64,000 nt of DNA, from the NCBI RefSeq assembly GCF_947495705.1, contig NZ_CANLZR010000007.1, positions 62,001 to 126,000 on the forward strand, given 5' to 3'. This stretch comes from an uncultured Phycicoccus sp. GTDB taxonomy: Bacteria > Actinomycetota > Actinomycetes > Actinomycetales > Dermatophilaceae. The translations under genes and the position numbers were made by a program. A model generated the notes under the pieces. That model had not been told where the DNA came from. It worked only from the letters and a program-made list of their open reading frames with translations, and made no database searches. Shown here piece by piece: positions 13,061 through 62,327 of this stretch. How positions within the stretch are numbered: position 1 is the first letter of the stretch; each line of letters begins with the position of its first letter.

Positions 13061-13132
13061 GCCCTCGTAGCTCAGGGGAAGAGCACTTCTCTCCTAAAGA
13101 AGGTGTCGCAGGTTCGAATCCTGCCGGGGGCA
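13061..13132 (+). tRNA. tRNA-Arg (anticodon CCT)
   Basis: Cloverleaf by eye: GCCCTCG/CGGGGGC acceptor, GCTC/GAGC D stem, CTTCT-CTCCTAA-AGAAG anticodon arm, GCAGG-TTCGAAT-CCTGC T arm. Confidence 0.95.
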
Positions 13133-13310
13133 CCTCGTGAAACCCGCGCTCTGACCAGACCTGCCGGCGGACTGGACCGGGACGCCTGACCGCGGGTCAC
13201 TCCTCCCACCCCCAGCTGCCGCCTCGACAGCGTCAACCTTCGGCACGGTTGGCGTCTGTTCCCAGATGACGGCAGATCCGCGACGGCGCGGGCCGGGAAG
13301 GAGTTCCCCG

Positions 13311-13976
13311 ATGAAGCTCACCTCCGCGCGGACGGCCCTCGTCGTGCTCGTCGCTGCTATGGGTCAGCTGGTGTCATCCCCGGCGTCGGCCGGTCCACCC
13401 CCCGGCCCGGTGGACGAGTCGTTGCTCGTTCCGGCCCTCAACCCGGCCTTGGCGCCATGGTCGTGCAAGGCCAAACAGACCGGGCCGGTGTGCACTGGCG
13501 CGCTGGACGCCGTGAACGAGTGGCAGCCGTTCGACTTCTCCTGCGACGCCCCGGTGTACGCCCGGAGCACCTTCCACCGCAGGGCAACGCGGTACTACGA
13601 CTGGGACTACAGGAACTACGACAGGTACGTGCACCAGAACGACCTCGATGAGCTCAGCACGTCCCCGACCGGTCCTGCAACGGCGTTGATCAGTGTGCGG
13701 ACCCGGTTCCATGAGCCGTTCGAAGTCCCCGGCGACCTGTCGACGATGACCGTCGTCACCGAAGGCGTCCCGCTGGACATCCGGCCCGTGCGGGGAGCCC
13801 CGGTGTTGCGGGTGGTCGGGACGCTCGTCGAACCACCCGGAGAGGTCGGCACCTTCAGCGGTCACGTGACCGACCACGGTGTGACCACACGCTACGAAGA
13901 CGCGCCTCTGGACACGGTGGTCTCGGAGGAGACCTTCGTCGAGGCTGTGTGCACGGCCGTCCAGGAACTGCCGTGA
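13311..13976 (+). CDS. Secreted hypothetical protein, 4 conserved Cys, paralogous to 15708..16451
   Basis: Signal peptide MKLTSARTALVVLVAAMGQLVSSPASAG; LVPALNPALAPWSC...CTG...FSCD...VEAVCTAVQ. Confidence 0.85.
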   Translation: MKLTSARTALVVLVAAMGQLVSSPASAGPPPGPVDESLLVPALNPALAPWSCKAKQTGPVCTGALDAVNEWQPFDFSCDAPVYARSTFHRRATRYYDWDYRNYDRYVHQNDLDELSTSPTGPATALISVRTRFHEPFEVPGDLSTMTVVTEGVPLDIRPVRGAPVLRVVGTLVEPPGEVGTFSGHVTDHGVTTRYEDAPLDTVVSEETFVEAVCTAVQELP

Positions 13977-14030
13977 AGTGGGTTCCGGACCGCTCAGGCC
14001 CGCACTAGCGTGGTTCGACTGGGAGTGGCG

Positions 14031-14528
14031 ATGCGCGCAGAGGACCGGCCGGACTACGAGTGGGTGTTCAGCGCCTCGTTCAGCTCGATCACTCGCACCG
14101 TCTTCCTCATCGTGCACGATCGGGAGGCCGCCGAGGAGATCACCCAGGAAGCCTTCGTCAAACTGCTTCAATACTGGGACGCCGTGGCTGGATACGACCA
14201 CCCCCAGGCATGGGTGAGGAAGGTCGCCACCCGGATGGCCGTCCGTCATGCGGCACGCGAACGCCGACGCCCCACACTGGAGGCGCGGGCTCACAGGCCG
14301 ACGGCGGTGGTCCCCTCCGACCCGGCACTCGACGTGATCGAGGCCGTCCGCGATCTGGCGCCAATGCAGCGCGCTGCCGTTGTCCTCCACTACTTCGAGG
14401 ACCGCCCAGTGGGTGAGATCGCCGGCGCCCTTCAGGTATCGGAGTCCACCGTCAAACAGCATCTGTATCGGGCCCGTGCCCACCTGGCCCGCACGCTCGG
14501 CGAGGCGGTGACCGATGATGTCCGTTGA
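14031..14528 (+). CDS. ECF-type RNA polymerase sigma factor (SigE family)
   Basis: Region 2: SFSSITRTVFLIVHDREAAEEITQEAFVKLLQYWD...HPQAWVRKVATRMA; region 4: LAPMQRAAVVLHYFEDRPVGEIAGALQVSESTVKQHLYRARAHL. Confidence 0.93.
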   Translation: MRAEDRPDYEWVFSASFSSITRTVFLIVHDREAAEEITQEAFVKLLQYWDAVAGYDHPQAWVRKVATRMAVRHAARERRRPTLEARAHRPTAVVPSDPALDVIEAVRDLAPMQRAAVVLHYFEDRPVGEIAGALQVSESTVKQHLYRARAHLARTLGEAVTDDVR

Positions 14529-15477
14529 CGATCGGCTTCGCGCCGCCCTCACTGCGTACGCAGCGTGTCTGCCGGAACCAGAGGTCGAGCTGCGGTTCCA
14601 TCGAGTTCTGGCTCTCCACCGGCGCAGGCGTGCCCTCCGACTGGTCAGCGCCGCTGCGGGGCTTGTTGCAGCCTGCGCCGTCGTGAGCATCTCCTTGGGC
14701 TGGCCCGCGCGGCCGGCGGCACTGTGGCCGTCGGGCGACATCACCCCCACGTCCCGCGTAGAGGGGGCCTACGCCGGGTTGGCCAGAGCACTGCCGGACA
14801 TTCCTCGGTCCGCCGGGCGGTGGGGCCTGGACTTCGGCGAGGACGGCCGGATGACGGCGTCCGCGCCGACCGGTTCGGGTCGTAGCCCCGAGCCCGCGGG
14901 GTGGCTGCGCGGGGACGCGGTCACCACCGAGCTCTTCGCCGAGGACGCGTGTCGCGACACCGCGCCGGGCACCTACACGGTGGCGCGACTCGCCGACCGC
15001 GTGGTCCTCGAGGTCGCCGAGGACCGCTGCGCAGCGCGGATGAGCCTCTTGACGGCCACGACCTGGGTCTCGACGCTCGCCACGTCGTGGAACGGCCCCA
15101 GAATCCCCGACAGTCGCTGGGTCCGTGACATCGACGTCGCGGAGCTGCGCAAGCAGGGTTACACCTTGACGCCAGACGCCCTCCGTGCCAACTTCCTCGA
15201 CGACGGTCACGGCCGGTTCCACCTCGAGTTCACGGGAACAAAGTTCTACGTCTTCGTCGAGGACGAGGATGGCTCGTTGGTCCTCGGCGACCAAGGAGAT
15301 GTCTCCTACGACGCACTCGGCAGGTGGGTCCAGAACCTCAGCCTTGCGGTGGAATGGCGACTCGATGGCGATGCGCTCGTCACCGAGAACGTGGATCCGG
15401 TGCACGGAGTCAGGCTGAACCCAGCGACCGCGGAGGAACGGTTCGCCCTTGAAGGCACGTGGCACCGAGCCGGCTGA
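14515..15477 (+). CDS. Single-TM protein overlapping sigma gene; candidate anti-sigma or sensor partner
   Basis: Overlaps sigma stop; short cytosolic N-term, TM VSAAAGLVAACAVVSISLGW, large C-terminal extracytoplasmic region; no HxxxCxxC motif seen. Confidence 0.75.
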   Translation: MMSVDDRLRAALTAYAACLPEPEVELRFHRVLALHRRRRALRLVSAAAGLVAACAVVSISLGWPARPAALWPSGDITPTSRVEGAYAGLARALPDIPRSAGRWGLDFGEDGRMTASAPTGSGRSPEPAGWLRGDAVTTELFAEDACRDTAPGTYTVARLADRVVLEVAEDRCAARMSLLTATTWVSTLATSWNGPRIPDSRWVRDIDVAELRKQGYTLTPDALRANFLDDGHGRFHLEFTGTKFYVFVEDEDGSLVLGDQGDVSYDALGRWVQNLSLAVEWRLDGDALVTENVDPVHGVRLNPATAEERFALEGTWHRAG

Positions 15478-15707
15478 TGACCCAGTGCCTCGGGAAGCCG
15501 AGCCGGAACTCCGTCCCCGCCGCCCCAGTGGCGCCTGGGGGGTCATCGGATCGTCGGCATTCCCGGACGGCGGCTGCCGTTCCATCCGGAGCAGCGGACC
15601 GGCCGTGACGCAGCGCCATGTGCGTTGAGCGGACGTTGAGCGATCGCCACCACGCTGCGTGCACAGACCGGCTCACACAGGGAGCCGAATGCGCTCAGGA
15701 GGCTGAC

Positions 15708-16451
15708 ATGCCCGCACCAACCCTCGCAGTCCTTGCACAGCGCGCCCACCTCTCGAACCCCCGCGTCGCGGCGCTCGTCGCAGGGAGCGCGTCCCTCGCG
15801 CTCCTTCTCACCGCGGCACCCACCTCCGCCGCCGGGAGTGCGGCCGCCGCGCCCCCAGCCGGATCGGCCGGTCAGCCGCTGCGCTCGCTCTCCGCGGGCG
15901 CCGGCAACGAGCGCGAGGTCGACCCGCTCAGCCTGACGCCTGCCCTGAACCCCACCTTCACATGGTCGTGCGCCCGCACCGGAGCGGGGATCACCTGCCA
16001 CGGCGAACGCCGGACCAGCTACGGGCCGGAGCCGGTGGGGTTCGACTGCGACGGGCTGGAGGTCTACGTCACCGGTCGCGGGGAGGACACATCCACTCGT
16101 TGGCACACCGCCGAGGGGCTCGCAACGCGCACCATCACGCAGCGGTCGTTCCCGGAGGACCGGATGACCTTGGCCCCCGACACCTCAGGTCCGGCCGTCG
16201 TCTCGCGGCAGCACTGGACGCAGCACTACCGCTACGGCACGCCCGGTGATGTCACGACGCGGGTCCTCGTGGAGACCGGCCAGGTGCTCATGGTGCACGG
16301 GACGGGCGCCGAGGGGAAGGTGTTCCAGTTGACGGGGCGCACCGAGTTCGCGCCCGGGATGGACTTCGAGTCAGTCGTGCAGTCGAGCGGACGGGACGAC
16401 TTCGCGGCCGGCCGCGACTTCGTCGCCGAGGTCTGCCGCGCGCTGACGTGA
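15708..16451 (+). CDS. Secreted hypothetical protein, 4 conserved Cys, paralogous to 13311..13976
   Basis: Signal peptide ...VAALVAGSASLALLLTAAPTSAAG; LTPALNPTFTWSC...TCHG...FDCD...FVAEVCRAL. Confidence 0.85.
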   Translation: MPAPTLAVLAQRAHLSNPRVAALVAGSASLALLLTAAPTSAAGSAAAAPPAGSAGQPLRSLSAGAGNEREVDPLSLTPALNPTFTWSCARTGAGITCHGERRTSYGPEPVGFDCDGLEVYVTGRGEDTSTRWHTAEGLATRTITQRSFPEDRMTLAPDTSGPAVVSRQHWTQHYRYGTPGDVTTRVLVETGQVLMVHGTGAEGKVFQLTGRTEFAPGMDFESVVQSSGRDDFAAGRDFVAEVCRALT

Positions 16452-16567
16452 CCAGCGGGGGACCCGGGTCGCTGATGCCCATGGGTCGCGCACCGTCCAC
16501 CTTCGAACGTGGCACCGCGGCTGCGGCACGAGTGCGCGAAGGATGCAGTCGGGCGTACATTCCGAGC

Positions 16568-19500
16568 GTGCGACGGATCTTCGCACGCCTGTACGGCGCG
16601 GTGTCGATAGAGGTGGACGGCAGGGCACTCGACCTCGGTCCACCGCGACAGCGCGCGCTCCTCGCGCTCCTGATTGCGCAGGCCGGTCGCGTGGTGCCCA
16701 GTGAGCACCTGCTCGCGGCACTGTGGGGCGAGGTCCCCCCGCGGACGGCTGCGCACGCCGTCCAGGTCTACGTGTCCGATCTCAGACGCCGGCTCTGCGA
16801 GGCGTGCGGCCAGCCGCTCGTGCTGACCCAACGGCCGGGATACCTGCTCGACCTGTCACGCGACGAGGTCGACCTCCTGGTCGTGGAGGACTCCCTCCGC
16901 CACGCGCTGTCCTTGGAGGCGGACGACTCTCCCGGCGCCGGCCTCGCCCGGCTTCGTCCACTGCTGGCGCTCATGGACGCGGACCCGCTCGCCGACGTCA
17001 GGGAGGAAGCGGTCCGTCGCGAGTTGGCGCCTCGGCTCGCCCGGGTGCGGACCGAGGCGTGGATGCTCGCCGCCCGCTGCGCCCTTCGCTCCGGCGACCT
17101 CGACACGGCGTGCTCGGTGGCCGAACGGTGCCTGGCCGAGAACCCGTACGACGAGGAAGCCCATGCCGTGTTCGTGGAGGCCACCTACCGGCAAGGTCGC
17201 CCCGCCGAGGCTTTGCGGTCCCTTGCCGGCGTTCGCCGGCTGCTCGCCGACGAGCTCGGCGTCGATCCCTCGCCGCGGCTCGTGGGACTCCACGAGCGCA
17301 TCCTGGTCCACGACCCGTCCCTCCGAGTCCCGGCCGACCGCCAGGCCCTGCGGAACCCGTACAAGGGCCTTCGCCCCTTCGCTGAGTCCGACGCGCACGA
17401 CTTCTTCGGCCGGCGTGATCTTGCACGGCAGCTCGTGGACCGACTCGCCCAGGGCGCCCGCCTGGTCATCGTCGTCGGCCCGTCGGGAGGGGGCAAGTCG
17501 AGCCTGCTGGCGGCCGGGGTCATCCCCCTGCTGAGGCGAACCCGCCTCAACGGCCTTGACCGGAGCGCTGTCGTGATCCCCCCGCGGACGATGACCACTG
17601 AGGCCGCACTGCGAGCGGCAGTCGTCAGGGAGCGAAAGAAAACCCGACCGGTCGTCCTCGTTCTGGACCAGCTGGAGGACATCCTCGAGGGGGGTGACTG
17701 CGACGGCGTGCTCTCCTGGCTCGCACAGGAAGTGCGAGACGGCGGGCCGCTCCGCGTGGTGGCCGCGCTCCGCGCCGATCGGTACGACCGACCACTGCAG
17801 CACCGCGCGTTCGCCGAGGTGTTCATCGACGGCGTCGTCAACCTCGTCCCCATGACTCCAGCCGAGCTCGAGGAGGCAGTGCGTTCACCGGCCACCGGGG
17901 TGGGCCGCGACGTGGAGCCGGCACTGCTCGCGGAGCTCATCGGCGACACGGTGGCGCAGCCCGCAGTGCTCCCGCTCCTCCAGTTCGCCCTGACCGACCT
18001 CTTCGATCGGGAGACCGGCTCAACGCTGACTCTCGCCACCCACCGCCAGCTCGGTGGCGTCCGCGCCGCCCTGGCCCGACGAGCCGATGGTCTGCGCGAC
18101 GAGCTGGGTCCGGAGCGTGAGCAGGTTCTCGAACGGGTCCTCCTGCGTCTGACCGACGTCGACGACACCGGACGAGCACACCGCAGGGTCGTCCGCATCG
18201 AAGAGGTGGCGGCTGCCTTCCCGGACGCCTCCGAGGTTGCGGCGGTGCTCGGGCGCCTCAACGACCTGCGCCTCATCACCTACGACCGGGACGCCGCGGG
18301 CGGAGGCGTCATCGAGCTGTCCCACGACGCCCTCCTGCACGCGTGGCCCTGGTTCCGCGAGCTCATCGACCGGCATCGCACGGACATCCGGCGGCATCGG
18401 GCGTTCACCACCGCCCTGGAGGCATGGGAGTCAACCGGGCGTGATCCCGACTACCTCCTCACTGAGGCACGCCTCGGCGAGGTGGAGTCCTGGGAAGCGA
18501 CAGGCGCGATCGCGCTGACGCCCCGAGAACGGGCCTTCCTCGAGGCGGGGCAGGAGGCCGCCGCACGGCGAGCGTCGTACGAGCGGGAGCAGGAACGACG
18601 TCGCCTCACACTGGAACGTCGGTCCCGTAGCCGTCTGGTCCTTCTCGGCACCACCGGCATCGCCCTGGTCGTGGCGCTCACGGCAGCGGCGCTCCTCGCA
18701 GGCAGGGAGCCACCCCATGTCGCCCTCGTCCTCCACGACGCCGGCAGCATCGAGCTGGCCATCGAACGAGGCGTCGACGAGGTCGCTCGCACGACGACCC
18801 TGACGCGCGAGAAACTCGTCGTCGACCGTGGCGCCACGCGAGAGCTCCTCCGGCTCACCGCCGATGGATCGGTCGACCTCGTTCTCAGCGCGGCCCTCGA
18901 TGTCGACTACGAGGGCCTCGCCCGTCAGCGGGCCGGAACCCATTTCATGCTCGTCGAACGAGAGGCGACTGGTCCGAACGTGACGGTGCTCGCCTTCGCG
19001 GATCAGGAGCCGGCATTCCTCGCCGGGGCGGCGGCTGCCCTGACCACTCGTACCGGGCGTGTCGCGTTCATCGGCGGAGTCGACTTCGCGGTGCTCCATC
19101 GCTTCGAGGCGGGGTTCGTGGCTGGGGTCGCTGCCGTCGACCCCCTCGTGAGCGTCGACGTCCGGTACCTCACCGCACCGCCTGACTATGCGGGATTCGT
19201 TGACCCGGTCCACTCGAGCACCGCGACACGTCGAGCGCTCGCCGACGGAGCCGACGTCGTGTACCTGGCCGCCGGTGCAGCCCAGAGTGGCGGCCTCCAG
19301 GCACTGGTCGACCTCGCGGAGAGGTCCGACCGTCCGCTGTGGGCGATCGGCGCCGATGAGGACGCGTACTACGACACGCGCTGGCAGACGACGCCGGGAG
19401 CCCGCGACCACGTCCTCGCCTCCACCGTCAAGCGCTTCGACCAGGCCACGCGCAGTGCTCTCGAGGCCTACCTGGGGCCGGGGCTGGGTTCGGGGCAGCG

Positions 19501-19696
19501 GGTGTCGGACCTGGCGAACGGAGAACTGGCGTTCGCGACGACCGGCGGCCACCTGGACCACGTGGCGTCGAGGATCGACGAGCTGCGGCGTGCCGTCGTC
19601 AGTGGCCGACTGGTCGTACCGTGCGTTCCTTCCCGCCTGACCGGCGCCGCGGTCGCGGCCGCAGCCGCCGGTCCGAAGTGCCCGGAGGCTCGATGA
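16568..19696 (+). CDS. SARP/BTAD transcriptional activator fused to nSTAND-type NTPase, TM helix and extracytoplasmic BMP (PnrA/Med-like) ligand-binding domain
   Basis: SARP HTH RRIFARLYGAVSIEVDGRALDLGPPRQRALLALLIAQAGRVVPSEHLLAALWGE; BTAD; YKGLRPFAESDAHDFFGRRDL; Walker A GPSGGGKSS; Walker B VLVLDQLEDIL; TM LVLLGTTGIALVVALTAAALLAG; FADQEPAFLAGAAAALTTRTGRVAFIGGVDFAVLHRFEAGFVAGVAAV...GADVVYLAAGAAQSGGLQA...WAIGADEDAYY. Longer upstream start (16448) possible. Confidence 0.88.
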   Translation: MRRIFARLYGAVSIEVDGRALDLGPPRQRALLALLIAQAGRVVPSEHLLAALWGEVPPRTAAHAVQVYVSDLRRRLCEACGQPLVLTQRPGYLLDLSRDEVDLLVVEDSLRHALSLEADDSPGAGLARLRPLLALMDADPLADVREEAVRRELAPRLARVRTEAWMLAARCALRSGDLDTACSVAERCLAENPYDEEAHAVFVEATYRQGRPAEALRSLAGVRRLLADELGVDPSPRLVGLHERILVHDPSLRVPADRQALRNPYKGLRPFAESDAHDFFGRRDLARQLVDRLAQGARLVIVVGPSGGGKSSLLAAGVIPLLRRTRLNGLDRSAVVIPPRTMTTEAALRAAVVRERKKTRPVVLVLDQLEDILEGGDCDGVLSWLAQEVRDGGPLRVVAALRADRYDRPLQHRAFAEVFIDGVVNLVPMTPAELEEAVRSPATGVGRDVEPALLAELIGDTVAQPAVLPLLQFALTDLFDRETGSTLTLATHRQLGGVRAALARRADGLRDELGPEREQVLERVLLRLTDVDDTGRAHRRVVRIEEVAAAFPDASEVAAVLGRLNDLRLITYDRDAAGGGVIELSHDALLHAWPWFRELIDRHRTDIRRHRAFTTALEAWESTGRDPDYLLTEARLGEVESWEATGAIALTPRERAFLEAGQEAAARRASYEREQERRRLTLERRSRSRLVLLGTTGIALVVALTAAALLAGREPPHVALVLHDAGSIELAIERGVDEVARTTTLTREKLVVDRGATRELLRLTADGSVDLVLSAALDVDYEGLARQRAGTHFMLVEREATGPNVTVLAFADQEPAFLAGAAAALTTRTGRVAFIGGVDFAVLHRFEAGFVAGVAAVDPLVSVDVRYLTAPPDYAGFVDPVHSSTATRRALADGADVVYLAAGAAQSGGLQALVDLAERSDRPLWAIGADEDAYYDTRWQTTPGARDHVLASTVKRFDQATRSALEAYLGPGLGSGQRVSDLANGELAFATTGGHLDHVASRIDELRRAVVSGRLVVPCVPSRLTGAAVAAAAAGPKCPEAR

Positions 19697-19814: not shown

Positions 19815-20282
19815 GTGACGGTCACCTTGCGCGAGATCACCGCGGCCAATCTCGGCCCGGTCCTCGAGCTGCGCACCACCCCTGAGCAGGAACGCTTCGT
19901 CAGCACCGTGGCCGATTCGATTGCCGAGGCCGCCGCGAACCCGCATGGGAACCCCTGGAACCGCGCCGTGTACGCCGACGAGGAGCCGGTGGGCTTCGTC
20001 ATGCTGAGCTGGGATGTGGAGCCGCAGCCACCACACATCAACGGGCCCTGGTTCCTGTGGAAGCTCCTCATCGACGTCCGCTACCAGCGCCAAGGCTACG
20101 GGCGAGAGGTGCTGCGCCTCGTCGTGGCGCTGGTGCGCGAGCACGGGGCGACCGAGCTCCTCACCAGCTACGTGCCTGGAAGAGGTGGTCCGGCCGGCTT
20201 CTACGCCCGGCACGGCTTCGTCCCCCGTGGCGACCGCGATCCCGATGGTGAGATCATCCTGCGCCTGGACCTGAGGGCATGA
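19815..20282 (+). CDS. GNAT family N-acetyltransferase (spermine/spermidine acetyltransferase-like)
   Basis: VTLREITAANLGPVLELRTTPEQERFVSTVADSIAEA; LLIDVRYQRQGYGREVLRLVV; GFYARHGFVPRG. Confidence 0.9.
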   Translation: MTVTLREITAANLGPVLELRTTPEQERFVSTVADSIAEAAANPHGNPWNRAVYADEEPVGFVMLSWDVEPQPPHINGPWFLWKLLIDVRYQRQGYGREVLRLVVALVREHGATELLTSYVPGRGGPAGFYARHGFVPRGDRDPDGEIILRLDLRA

Positions 20283-20405
20283 TGGGCGCCGGAGCGCGAT
20301 GCTGCCGGAGTGCCTCCATCGACGGCAGACGGTTTCGATCCGGACCCCGCTGGGCAGTATGAGTGCAGGTCCGGCCCGCGTGGCGACGAGGAAGGTGGCC
20401 CACCG

Positions 20406-21101
20406 ATGGCGCAGCCTGCTCCCTGCGGGGCCCATGTCGTCCTCGTTCCCGGTCTGGGTCTCGACGCCCGCGCGTGGGCCCCCGTTTTTGAACGCCTGCC
20501 GGACGCCACCGTCCTCCCCCTGCCGTCCATGGGAGGCCGCGCCTCACCCGGGACCGACCTGGCCGTCGACGCCCAGAGCCGGCGGCTCGGCGCGTGCCTG
20601 CCCACAGGTGCGCCCCTCGTCCTCGTGGGCCATTCCGCGAGCTGCCCGGTCGTGGTCGACACGGCCTGCCGCGTCCCCGAGGTCGCGGGGCTCGTCCTCG
20701 TCGCCCCCGTGACCGACACCAGGGCACGCACCTGGCCCCGGATGGTCACCCAATGGCTGCGGACGGCCCCGCACGAGCGGCTCTGGGAGGTCCCGGTCCT
20801 CACCCCGCAGTACCGGGCGACCGGCCTCTCGTCGATGTCCCGCGGGATGAACCAGGTGCGGCGGTACCGCACCGATGTCGGCCTCTCGGCCGTGACCGCT
20901 CCCACCCACGTGATCCGGGGGAGCCGGGACCGCATCGCCTCCGAGGACTGGTGTGCCCTGCTGGCCCGACGCCCGCCGGTCGACCTGGTGACGGTCCCGG
21001 ATGCCGCGCACATGGTGCCGCTCACCCACCCCCTGGTCGTCGTCGAGTCGGTCGAGCGGCTCCGCGACGGCGCCGCGGACGACCGCCATCCTGGCCCGTG
21101 A
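20406..21101 (+). CDS. Alpha/beta hydrolase
   Basis: VVLVPGLGLDARAWAPVFERLP; LVLVGHSASCPVV nucleophile elbow; C-term DAAHMVPLTHP. Confidence 0.88.
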   Translation: MAQPAPCGAHVVLVPGLGLDARAWAPVFERLPDATVLPLPSMGGRASPGTDLAVDAQSRRLGACLPTGAPLVLVGHSASCPVVVDTACRVPEVAGLVLVAPVTDTRARTWPRMVTQWLRTAPHERLWEVPVLTPQYRATGLSSMSRGMNQVRRYRTDVGLSAVTAPTHVIRGSRDRIASEDWCALLARRPPVDLVTVPDAAHMVPLTHPLVVVESVERLRDGAADDRHPGP

Positions 21102-59777: not shown

Positions 59778-62327
59778 CTACTCGGTGGCGATCGCGCGGA
59801 GGACGTCGAGGCGCGCCGCCCGGCGGCCCGGCCACACCGCTGCCAGCACACCGACGACGGCCGCCACGGCCACGAACCCGGCGAGCTGCACCCACGGGAT
59901 GGCCAGGACGTCGATGCCGTCGTCGGCCAGCGACCGTTGCAGCGCCACCGCGAAGACGAGCCCCAGGACGATCCCCAGCACCGCGCCGAGCACCGCGATC
60001 GCCACCGACTCCAGGCGCAGCATCGTGCGCAGCTGACGGCGGCTGAGCCCGACCGCACGGAGCAGGCCGATCTCGCGGACCCGCTCGACGACCGAGAGCG
60101 CGAGGGTGTTCACGATGCCGAGCACTGCGATGACGACGGCGAGACCGAGTAGGGCGTAGACGATGAAGAGCAGGCGGTCGATGGGTTCGCGCTGCTCGGC
60201 CGCGTACTCCGCCTGGTCGGCCACGCTCACCGTCGGCAGGTCGGCGACCGCGGCGTCGAGTCCCTGCCGCAGCGCGACGCGGTCGGCGCCCGGGGCTGCG
60301 ACGACGTACGTCGCGCGGTCGGTCGGGGGGACGCCGAGCTCGTCGAAGGCGTCGATCGACATCGTGACGTCGGACTGGAGCACCGCGTCCTGCTCGTACG
60401 TCGCGACGACCCGGGCCGCGGACTCCTCCCCGGCGAAGTCGATGGTCACCGCGGAGCCCACCTGCAGCCCCTGGTCCGCGGCGTACGTCGACGCGACGGC
60501 CACCGCGGCCACCCCGAGGTCGGTGAGCGCCCCGGTGAGGATGGTGGGCCGCGCCACCCGCACGACTCCCGCAGGGTCGATGCCTGTCGCGAACTCCCGG
60601 TCGCCGTCGACCTCGAGCAGTGCGTTCCGCACGCGGACGACCTCCTCGACGCCCTCCACCCGGCTGACATCGTCGGTGATGCTCGCCGAGAAGCCCTGCC
60701 CCACCACACTCGAGACGACGTAGTCGGCGACGACGTCCTCGGCGAGGGACTTGTCGATGCTCGCCTTCGCCGAGGCTCCGAGGACGGCCATCAGGGTCAC
60801 GAGCGAGACCCCGATCATCAGCGCCGACGCGGTGGCGCCGGTGCGGCGCGGGTTGCGGCGTGCGTTCTGCTCGGCTATTCGTCCGACGGCACCGAAGGAG
60901 CGGCGGTACGTCCAGCCGAGGGCCGCGAGCACCGGGCGGCCGAACATCGGGCTGAGCAGGGCCGTCCCCACGAGCACCCCGAAGGTCCCGGCGCCGAGCA
61001 CGTAGGTCGGCTCGCTCCCCCAGCCGGCCAGGCCGCCGCCCATCGCGACCGCCCCGGCGACGAGCAGCACCGACCCCACCGCGAGCCGCCACCGCATCCC
61101 GCCCTCGGCGAGGTGGGCGTCGTCGCGCATGGCCGCCACCGGGGGCACCGAGCCGGCCCGTCGGGCCGGCAGGTAGGCCGCGGCGAGGGTGACGACGACC
61201 CCGACGACGAGGGCCACGACGATGGTGCGCGGACGGAGCACGAGCTCGCTGACCCCGAGGTCGAGCCCGACGCGCCCGAACACCCAGCGGATGCCGATGG
61301 CCAGCAGGATGCCGAGGCCGATACCCACCGCGGACCCGACGACGCCGACCAGGCCGGCCTCGGCCAGCACCGACCGCGCCACCTGCCGCCGGCTCGCCCC
61401 GATCGCCCGCAGCAGCGCGAGTTCGCGGCTGCGCTGGGCGACGAGGATCGTGAACGTGTTGACGATGAGGAACGCCCCCACCGTGAGGGCCACCCCGGCG
61501 AACACGAGGAGGAAGGTCGTGACGAACGAGAGCGCCTCGTCGATCCGCGTGGAGGCGCGCGCGGCGGTCGCGTCACCCGTCGCCGCCTCGAACCCGTCCG
61601 GGAGCACGGCCTCGACCGCGGCGAGCAGGTCATCCTGGCTCGTGCCGTCGGCGGCGGTGACCCACACCTGCGACCAGGCGTCCGCGCCCTCGAGGTAGAG
61701 CTCCTGGGCCTGGCCTGCGTCGAGCATGACGACGCTCGCGCCGACGAGCGAGGTCCCGGCGAAGTCGGCCGTGCCGACGAGGGTGGCCTCGACCCGAGGC
61801 TGGGTCCCCGACGTGACGAGCGGGACGGCGTCGCCCTCGACGTAGGCCGCACGGGCCGCGGTGTTCGCGTCGAGGACGACCTCCCCGGCGGCCCCCGGCC
61901 AGCGTCCCGTCTCGAGAGTGGCGGTCGGCACGCCGTTGGCGGCCGGGCCCGAGTTGTACGACACCGCGATGCCGGGAGGACCGTTGCCGCCGATCAGCTT
62001 GCCGGAGCCGTCGACGACGTAGGTCCCGAAGGTCGTGATCCGGCCGTCGGCGCGGGCCGCGCCCGGCACCGCGGCCAGCTCGGCGACGAGGGAGTCCGGG
62101 ACGGTGCGGGTCCCGCCCGCACCGGCACCGGGGCCGCCGCTGCCCCCGCCGGCGCGGACGATGACGTCGCCGACCGCGCCGCTCGTCAAGCCGGTGAAGG
62201 CGCGGTCGAGGGTGTCGGTGAAGACGTAGGACCCGGCGACGAACGCGACGCCGAGGATGACGGCGACAGCGCTGAGGACGAGGCGCAGCTTGTGCGCGAT
62301 GATGCCCCGCCAGGTGGCGCGCAGCAC
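59778..62327 (-). CDS. ABC transporter permease (FtsX/MacB family)
   Basis: VLRATWRGIIAHKLRLVLSAVAVILGVAFVAGSYVFTDTL; NTFTILVAQRSRELALLRAIGASRRQV (twice-type FtsX repeats). Confidence 0.94.
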   Translation of the reverse strand: MLRATWRGIIAHKLRLVLSAVAVILGVAFVAGSYVFTDTLDRAFTGLTSGAVGDVIVRAGGGSGGPGAGAGGTRTVPDSLVAELAAVPGAARADGRITTFGTYVVDGSGKLIGGNGPPGIAVSYNSGPAANGVPTATLETGRWPGAAGEVVLDANTAARAAYVEGDAVPLVTSGTQPRVEATLVGTADFAGTSLVGASVVMLDAGQAQELYLEGADAWSQVWVTAADGTSQDDLLAAVEAVLPDGFEAATGDATAARASTRIDEALSFVTTFLLVFAGVALTVGAFLIVNTFTILVAQRSRELALLRAIGASRRQVARSVLAEAGLVGVVGSAVGIGLGILLAIGIRWVFGRVGLDLGVSELVLRPRTIVVALVVGVVVTLAAAYLPARRAGSVPPVAAMRDDAHLAEGGMRWRLAVGSVLLVAGAVAMGGGLAGWGSEPTYVLGAGTFGVLVGTALLSPMFGRPVLAALGWTYRRSFGAVGRIAEQNARRNPRRTGATASALMIGVSLVTLMAVLGASAKASIDKSLAEDVVADYVVSSVVGQGFSASITDDVSRVEGVEEVVRVRNALLEVDGDREFATGIDPAGVVRVARPTILTGALTDLGVAAVAVASTYAADQGLQVGSAVTIDFAGEESAARVVATYEQDAVLQSDVTMSIDAFDELGVPPTDRATYVVAAPGADRVALRQGLDAAVADLPTVSVADQAEYAAEQREPIDRLLFIVYALLGLAVVIAVLGIVNTLALSVVERVREIGLLRAVGLSRRQLRTMLRLESVAIAVLGAVLGIVLGLVFAVALQRSLADDGIDVLAIPWVQLAGFVAVAAVVGVLAAVWPGRRAARLDVLRAIATE

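Follow-up and report, generated by a model that had tools for sequence, protein, structure and literature searches.

A 64,000-nucleotide stretch of a contig from an uncultured Phycicoccus sp. (NZ_CANLZR010000007.1, positions 62,001 to 126,000), referred to here as the window, was analysed for a cassette of putative sensory and secreted proteins. The five same-strand genes described in the initial annotation were all present: two encode predicted secreted proteins with four cysteines (4-Cys proteins A and B), one an extracytoplasmic function (ECF) sigma factor, one a partner protein with a single transmembrane segment (TM), and one a large regulator that combines a Streptomyces antibiotic regulatory protein (SARP) head with STAND and BMP domains. 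The features of the locus, in window coordinates, are the following.

13061..13134, + strand: tRNA-Arg(CCT), predicted by ARAGORN; left edge of the variable region with the cassette.
13232..13259, + strand: predicted promoter of the cassette sigma factor, GTCAACC-N15-GTCTGT, 51 bp 5' of the ATG of protein A.
13311..13976, + strand: secreted 4-Cys protein A, 221 amino acids.
14031..14528, + strand: ECF sigma factor, 165 amino acids, with Pfam domains.
14518..15477, + strand: one-TM partner, putative anti-sigma factor/sensor.
15623..15642, + strand: direct repeat CGTTGAGCG-GA-CGTTGAGCG with an 11-bp period, candidate SARP operator 5' of protein B.
15708..16451, + strand: secreted 4-Cys protein B, 247 amino acids, divergent paralogue of A.
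16568..19696, + strand: membrane-anchored regulator, SARP/BTAD-nSTAND1-TM-Bmp; GTG start, alternative GTG at 16448.

Proteins A and B had been described as paralogues with four equivalent cysteines in a shared but unrecognised fold, and this observation held. The two proteins aligned by BLASTP with an E-value of 7e-9 (28% identity across 192 residues), and independent profiles of A-type and B-type relatives matched each other by hhalign with a probability of 98.6 and an E-value of 1e-15. The cysteines (positions 52, 61, 78 and 214 in A; 88, 97, 114 and 243 in B) were invariant across 17 homologues, as were R94, R105, G141, G152 and G170 (A numbering). Both proteins have an N-terminal hydrophobic segment of the signal-peptide type. 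The AlphaFold2 model of A has a confident core (mean pLDDT 88, pTM 0.77) and consists of nine strands and a C-terminal helix. No PDB fold stood out in comparison with this model (best Foldseek E-value 0.055, best Z-score 8.0, generic beta-barrels in the top rows), and the A-type profile had no match among PDB sequences. The 4-Cys proteins probably contain two disulfides within the predicted nine-strand beta fold. Neither A nor B matched Pfam, NCBIfam, PHROG or PADLOC, A had no match among plasmids, and a peptide-pattern scan of genome contigs for relatives of B yielded none; of the pattern searches, A1 was too divergent and A2 productive. Homologues were rare, occurring in 8 of 396 genomes of the order and in 4 of 394 genomes of the class. 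Judged by sequence, the 4-Cys proteins are an uncharacterised family of small secreted proteins of certain soil-type bacteria. Two 4-Cys genes, one A-like and one B-like, were also seen in divergent orientation in a metagenome-assembled genome of Ornithinibacter (G054, L014:1-1618), with a histidine kinase/response-regulator cluster about 2 kb away.

A survey of gene neighbourhoods, as proposed in the initial annotation, revealed conserved linkage. The sigma factor, the partner and a 4-Cys protein formed a trio in at least nine loci from two families, in varying gene orders and contexts: in the window, in G042, Humibacillus xanthopallidus and G319, and in five Nocardioides (pinisoli, ganghwensis, zg-1230, alpinus and guangzhouensis). 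When the partner profile was searched against the 394-genome class sample, full-length matches (E < 1e-60) were found in exactly the four 4-Cys-positive genomes, and the next-best matches (E-values of 6e-11 or higher) covered mainly the N-terminus. Under independent placement this coincidence would have a chance of about one in a billion, but two of the four genomes belong to the same genus. By gene content, the conserved unit is the trio of sigma factor, partner and 4-Cys protein, not all five genes of the cassette. Humibacillus carries a second, very divergent set of this kind (L013:6152-9817; hhalign E-value 7e-7), in which two paralogous one-TM partners flank the sigma gene and are followed by a distant 4-Cys protein.

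The sigma factor contains the sigma2 and sigma4 regions only, both detected above the Pfam cut-off (Sigma70_r2, E-value 2e-6; Sigma70_r4_2, 2e-15), and its orthologues are 55-66% identical. It matched the SigE-family model TIGR02983 with an E-value of 1.7e-31, but its 109.3 bits lie below the curated cut-off of 141.55. The motif GTCAACC-N15-GNCTGT was found 5' of the lead gene in all nine sigma-bearing loci and, in the Nocardioides loci, 5' of both the sigma gene and the 4-Cys gene. Each of its 14 instances over these loci has at most one mismatch. Their boxes are 99% identical and their spacers 39%, which argues that the motif does not just reflect common descent of the whole sequence. The motif is absent from the seven 4-Cys genes without this sigma factor (at least three mismatches). 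In the window, the copy at 13232-13259 is the sole exact match in 64 kb and one of three genome-wide; no copy lies 5' of B, of the sigma gene or of the SARP gene (at least four mismatches). The operon-internal sigma genes of the window and of Humibacillus lack the motif, as expected. Since the window copy lies upstream of protein A, A is very probably a target of the sigma factor, as far as the motif predicts. The GTCAACC box at the nine sigma loci would provide the AAC-type -35 element of an autoregulated promoter. With these shared promoters, the cassette idea is upgraded from adjacency to a predicted regulon.

The same promoter bears on the possibility that the sigma factor is an ordinary envelope-stress ECF factor with a broad regulon, the 4-Cys gene being one minor target among others. 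The window copy resembles the sigma-E sites of Streptomyces coelicolor, which include GTCAACC...CGTCTT (PMC6767563), and degenerate sites would escape scans for exact matches. However, exact matches were few genome-wide, those away from the cassette lay mostly within coding sequence in the genomes examined, and the full-length partner co-occurs tightly with the 4-Cys protein. A broad regulon of this kind appears quite improbable to us.

The stop codon of the sigma gene overlaps the start of the partner gene. The partner is predicted to have a cytosolic N-terminus of about 24 residues (MSVDxRLR..), a TM at residues 42-60 and a beta-rich extracytoplasmic part; M1, V3, R6, L7, R8, L11, A15, P21 and E24 are invariant. 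This N-terminal module alone was detected in about 50 further genomes, and an ECF sigma factor was encoded within the 3-kb stretch at 14 of the 16 distant loci retrieved. Such linkage supports an anchor of the anti-sigma type, by which the sigma factor may be inhibited. Encoded together with its sigma factor, membrane-anchored and with a cytosolic N-terminus by prediction, the partner is a putative anti-sigma factor and sensor. In the structural model, its C-terminal domain (residues ~192-319) resembles the lipocalin-like structures 5cyb and 3ge2 (Foldseek probability 0.94-0.98, E-value 0.04-0.06, Z-score 6.6-6.9). Modules of the partner RLR-TM type, for which no family entry was found, are common beside ECF sigma factors of Actinobacteria and carry varied ectodomains (L122-L137). 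In Humibacillus (L012:7309-8495) and in G319 (L041:10397-11569) the partner gene is split at the same place, after the first beta domain, and an exact GTCAACC-N17-CTGT site between the two parts in G319 suggests two genes.

The large regulator contains Pfam domains nSTAND1 (E-value 1.5e-84), BTAD (8e-21), Trans_reg_C (2.5e-11) and Bmp (1.4e-24) as well as a TM at residues 691-709, in the order BTAD-nSTAND1-TM-Bmp. It has the OmpR-type DNA-binding domain and the BTAD that characterise SARPs, and it scored 124 bits against the AfsR equivalog model NF053617, whose cut-off is 1430. In the SARP-nSTAND1 proteins of the window and of relatives, the STAND domain is followed by one strong hydrophobic candidate for a TM. 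The BMP sensor, previously taken as part of the layout, did not recur in the relatives: the C-terminus of the SARP-nSTAND1-type proteins in Demequina is a WD40-like propeller in place of BMP.

Sites described for SARPs consist of direct repeats with a period of 11 or 22 bp (PMC10936776). ATACCG repeats with an 11-bp period were found at the 4-Cys genes of genomes G105, G115, G224 and G251, where the sigma factor is missing. Genomes of 3-4 Mb contained the pattern ATACCGN5ATACC one or two times each, and the control not at all. A second ATACCG site lies 5' of an unlinked SARP-nSTAND1-type gene in G115 and G224; in G105 a single site is shared by the 4-Cys gene and the divergently oriented SARP gene; Demequina salsinemoris has a full site at the SARP gene and a partial one at the 4-Cys gene. 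SARP-nSTAND1 genes adjoin 4-Cys genes in G105 and G117. In the window, no repeat of the ATACCG type was seen 5' of B or of the SARP gene. The CGTTGAGCG repeat 5' of B is the sole 9-mer repeat at a spacing of 11 in 64 kb, such a repeat arose in 35 of 20,000 Markov shuffles of the intergenic region, and its core pattern has a unique exact match in the genome. The ATACCG repeats of the relatives and this one repeat of the window have the 11- or 22-bp direct-repeat form of a SARP operator, for which they are candidates. The SARP gene follows B without a direct repeat of its own, which makes a B-SARP operon plausible. From this arrangement, the SARP-STAND-BMP gene and B look like a second unit, of the SARP-STAND/4-Cys type present in Demequina and others.

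Two further observations were made at loci with SARP-nSTAND1 genes. A second secreted or lipoprotein family with the motif VPDGW (L101:8835-9578; L100:5160-5933, minus strand; L027:6300-6629), which had no Pfam match, stands at the same ATACCG operator beside such genes and looks like a further target. In G117 (L027:1480-6629), the SARP-nSTAND1 gene has a broken 4-Cys remnant beside it, and a transposase-like insertion lies close by.

The cassette lies in a variable region and starts directly 3' of the tRNA-Arg. The upstream MFS gene and the tRNA-Arg are syntenic in the congeners compared, everything downstream of the tRNA differs, and none of 11 congeners has a 4-Cys gene. The GC content at third codon positions (GC3) is 0.80-0.89 in the cassette genes versus 0.956 +/- 0.017 in 44 other window genes. 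On composition and synteny, horizontal acquisition is the best reading of the cassette segment. The GNAT and alpha/beta-hydrolase genes 3' of the cassette (window 19815-21101) also have a low GC3 (0.86-0.87), so that the acquired segment may reach ~21100; its right end has no defined limit because congeners share no synteny 3' of the tRNA.

In such a tRNA-linked variable region, only sigma factor, partner and protein A might form a real functional unit, with B and the SARP-STAND-BMP gene as chance neighbours. The variability among congeners and the foreign composition agree with this, and a BMP-type SARP occurred at no other 4-Cys locus found. This explanation nevertheless seems unlikely to us, given that SARP-nSTAND1 genes adjoin 4-Cys genes in G105 and G117, that a rare operator is common to distant SARP and 4-Cys genes in G115 and G224, and that the 11-bp repeat 5' of B is unique in the genome. 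The variable, tRNA-linked setting and foreign composition, together with the STAND NTPase, could also point to an island of defence or toxin genes in which the STAND protein is the effector. However, A, B, the partner and the SARP protein have no PADLOC match, the STAND protein bears a SARP/BTAD head for DNA binding, and the operator logic is conserved in relatives, which makes a defence function hardly credible.

We therefore consider it likely that one acquired segment contains a fusion of two units for extracytoplasmic sensing, each of which has a secreted 4-Cys protein as output. The earlier view of the cassette as an envelope-signalling module was largely right, but it joined what appear to be two modules, the trio on the one hand and SARP-STAND-BMP with B on the other. 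The computation establishes that A and B are paralogues and that the linkage is conserved, and it defines the motifs and the arrangement of domains and TMs; what we infer is that the partner acts as an anti-sigma factor, that ligands are sensed, that the SARP binds its sites, and that the 4-Cys proteins have disulfides and a role outside the cell. In the first unit, the partner would tether the ECF sigma factor at the membrane via its conserved cytosolic N-terminus, and its beta-barrel ectodomain would sense an envelope or external cue. The freed sigma factor would transcribe the operon 4-Cys A-sigma-partner from GTCAACC-N15-GNCTGT and, since this includes its own gene, would be positively autoregulated, with the 4-Cys protein as its main known target. 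In the second unit, the membrane-anchored SARP-nSTAND1 protein would sense an extracytoplasmic solute through its BMP domain, and its SARP part would bind the 11-bp direct repeat 5' of 4-Cys B, activating B and, by read-through, itself. The 4-Cys proteins, exported in this view, would function beyond the membrane; their likeliest role, proposed with low confidence, is that of envelope proteins for binding or protection. A broader proposal, which we judge to be evenly balanced, is that two unrelated classes of transmembrane transcription regulator have the 4-Cys beta-protein family, itself undescribed, as their dedicated output. One class would be ECF sigma factors whose membrane partner is of the lipocalin type, the other SARP-nSTAND1 proteins anchored in the membrane, with BMP or WD40-like ectodomains; the proposal adds that these wirings interchange between lineages and are combined here.

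The 4-Cys proteins might instead be autocrine or paracrine ligands of the lipocalin-like ectodomain of the partner or of the BMP domain of the SARP protein, closing a positive feedback loop. They are indeed encoded with two unrelated kinds of transmembrane sensor and are seemingly their main targets. However, small molecules are the usual ligands of BMP and lipocalin-like folds, and one type of 4-Cys protein occurs with three sensor ectodomains (lipocalin-like, BMP and WD40-like), an arrangement more in keeping with a shared output than with a shared ligand. A ligand role is, in our view, distinctly improbable.

Several points weigh against the two-unit reading. The lineages are related, and sequence counts overstate the number of independent events. 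The partner matched no known anti-sigma domain in Pfam or NCBIfam, and, domain 2 apart, its model is weak (pLDDT 63.8). The -10 element of the window promoter (CGTCTG) fits general ECF promoters too. There is only one instance of the candidate operator 5' of B; its sequence is unlike ATACCG, and a clear -10 is lacking. Finally, two-component genes are found next to or close to the 4-Cys genes of G115, G251 and G054, which leaves room for other control.

For many actinobacterial ECF sigma factors and large SARP-STAND proteins the signal or the target is not known. Here, target gene and binding sites can both be read from the conserved promoters, so that one reporter strain could suffice to identify the signals of the ectodomains; it could also show what a secreted family without database matches does for the envelope. 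If true, the dual-wiring reading would define an envelope response that is new, along with SARPs that sense outside the cytoplasm and for which a cognate operator is predicted. No description of the motif, of a sigma group with a lipocalin partner or of SARP-nSTAND1 proteins with secreted targets was found in the literature, of which coverage was incomplete.

The first unit resembles known pairs of ECF sigma factor and membrane anti-sigma factor such as RpoE-RseA and BldN-RsbN in that a sigma2-sigma4-only ECF factor is overlapped by a one-TM partner and in its positive autoregulation, predicted here from the shared promoter with an AAC-type -35. It differs in that the partner has no recognisable anti-sigma domain, having a short MSVDxRLR N-terminus and a lipocalin-like ectodomain, and in that the predicted target set is very small and centred on one secreted family. 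The model of partner domain 2 (residues ~192-319) resembles the fold of the lipocalin-like lipoprotein SP_0198 of S. pneumoniae (PDB 3ge2/5cyb); in the cassette, however, this domain forms the ectodomain of a sigma-linked TM protein, and a sequence relationship was not detected. The second unit shares with AfsR-type large SARPs (SARP-NOD/STAND) the OmpR-type DNA-binding domain, BTAD and STAND NTPase as well as predicted 11-bp direct-repeat sites. In contrast to the AfsR type, in SARPs of the cassette type the STAND domain is followed by a single TM, and a BMP or WD40-like domain on the extracytoplasmic side takes the place of the cytosolic TPR; the cassette SARP is predicted to target a secreted protein rather than an antibiotic gene.

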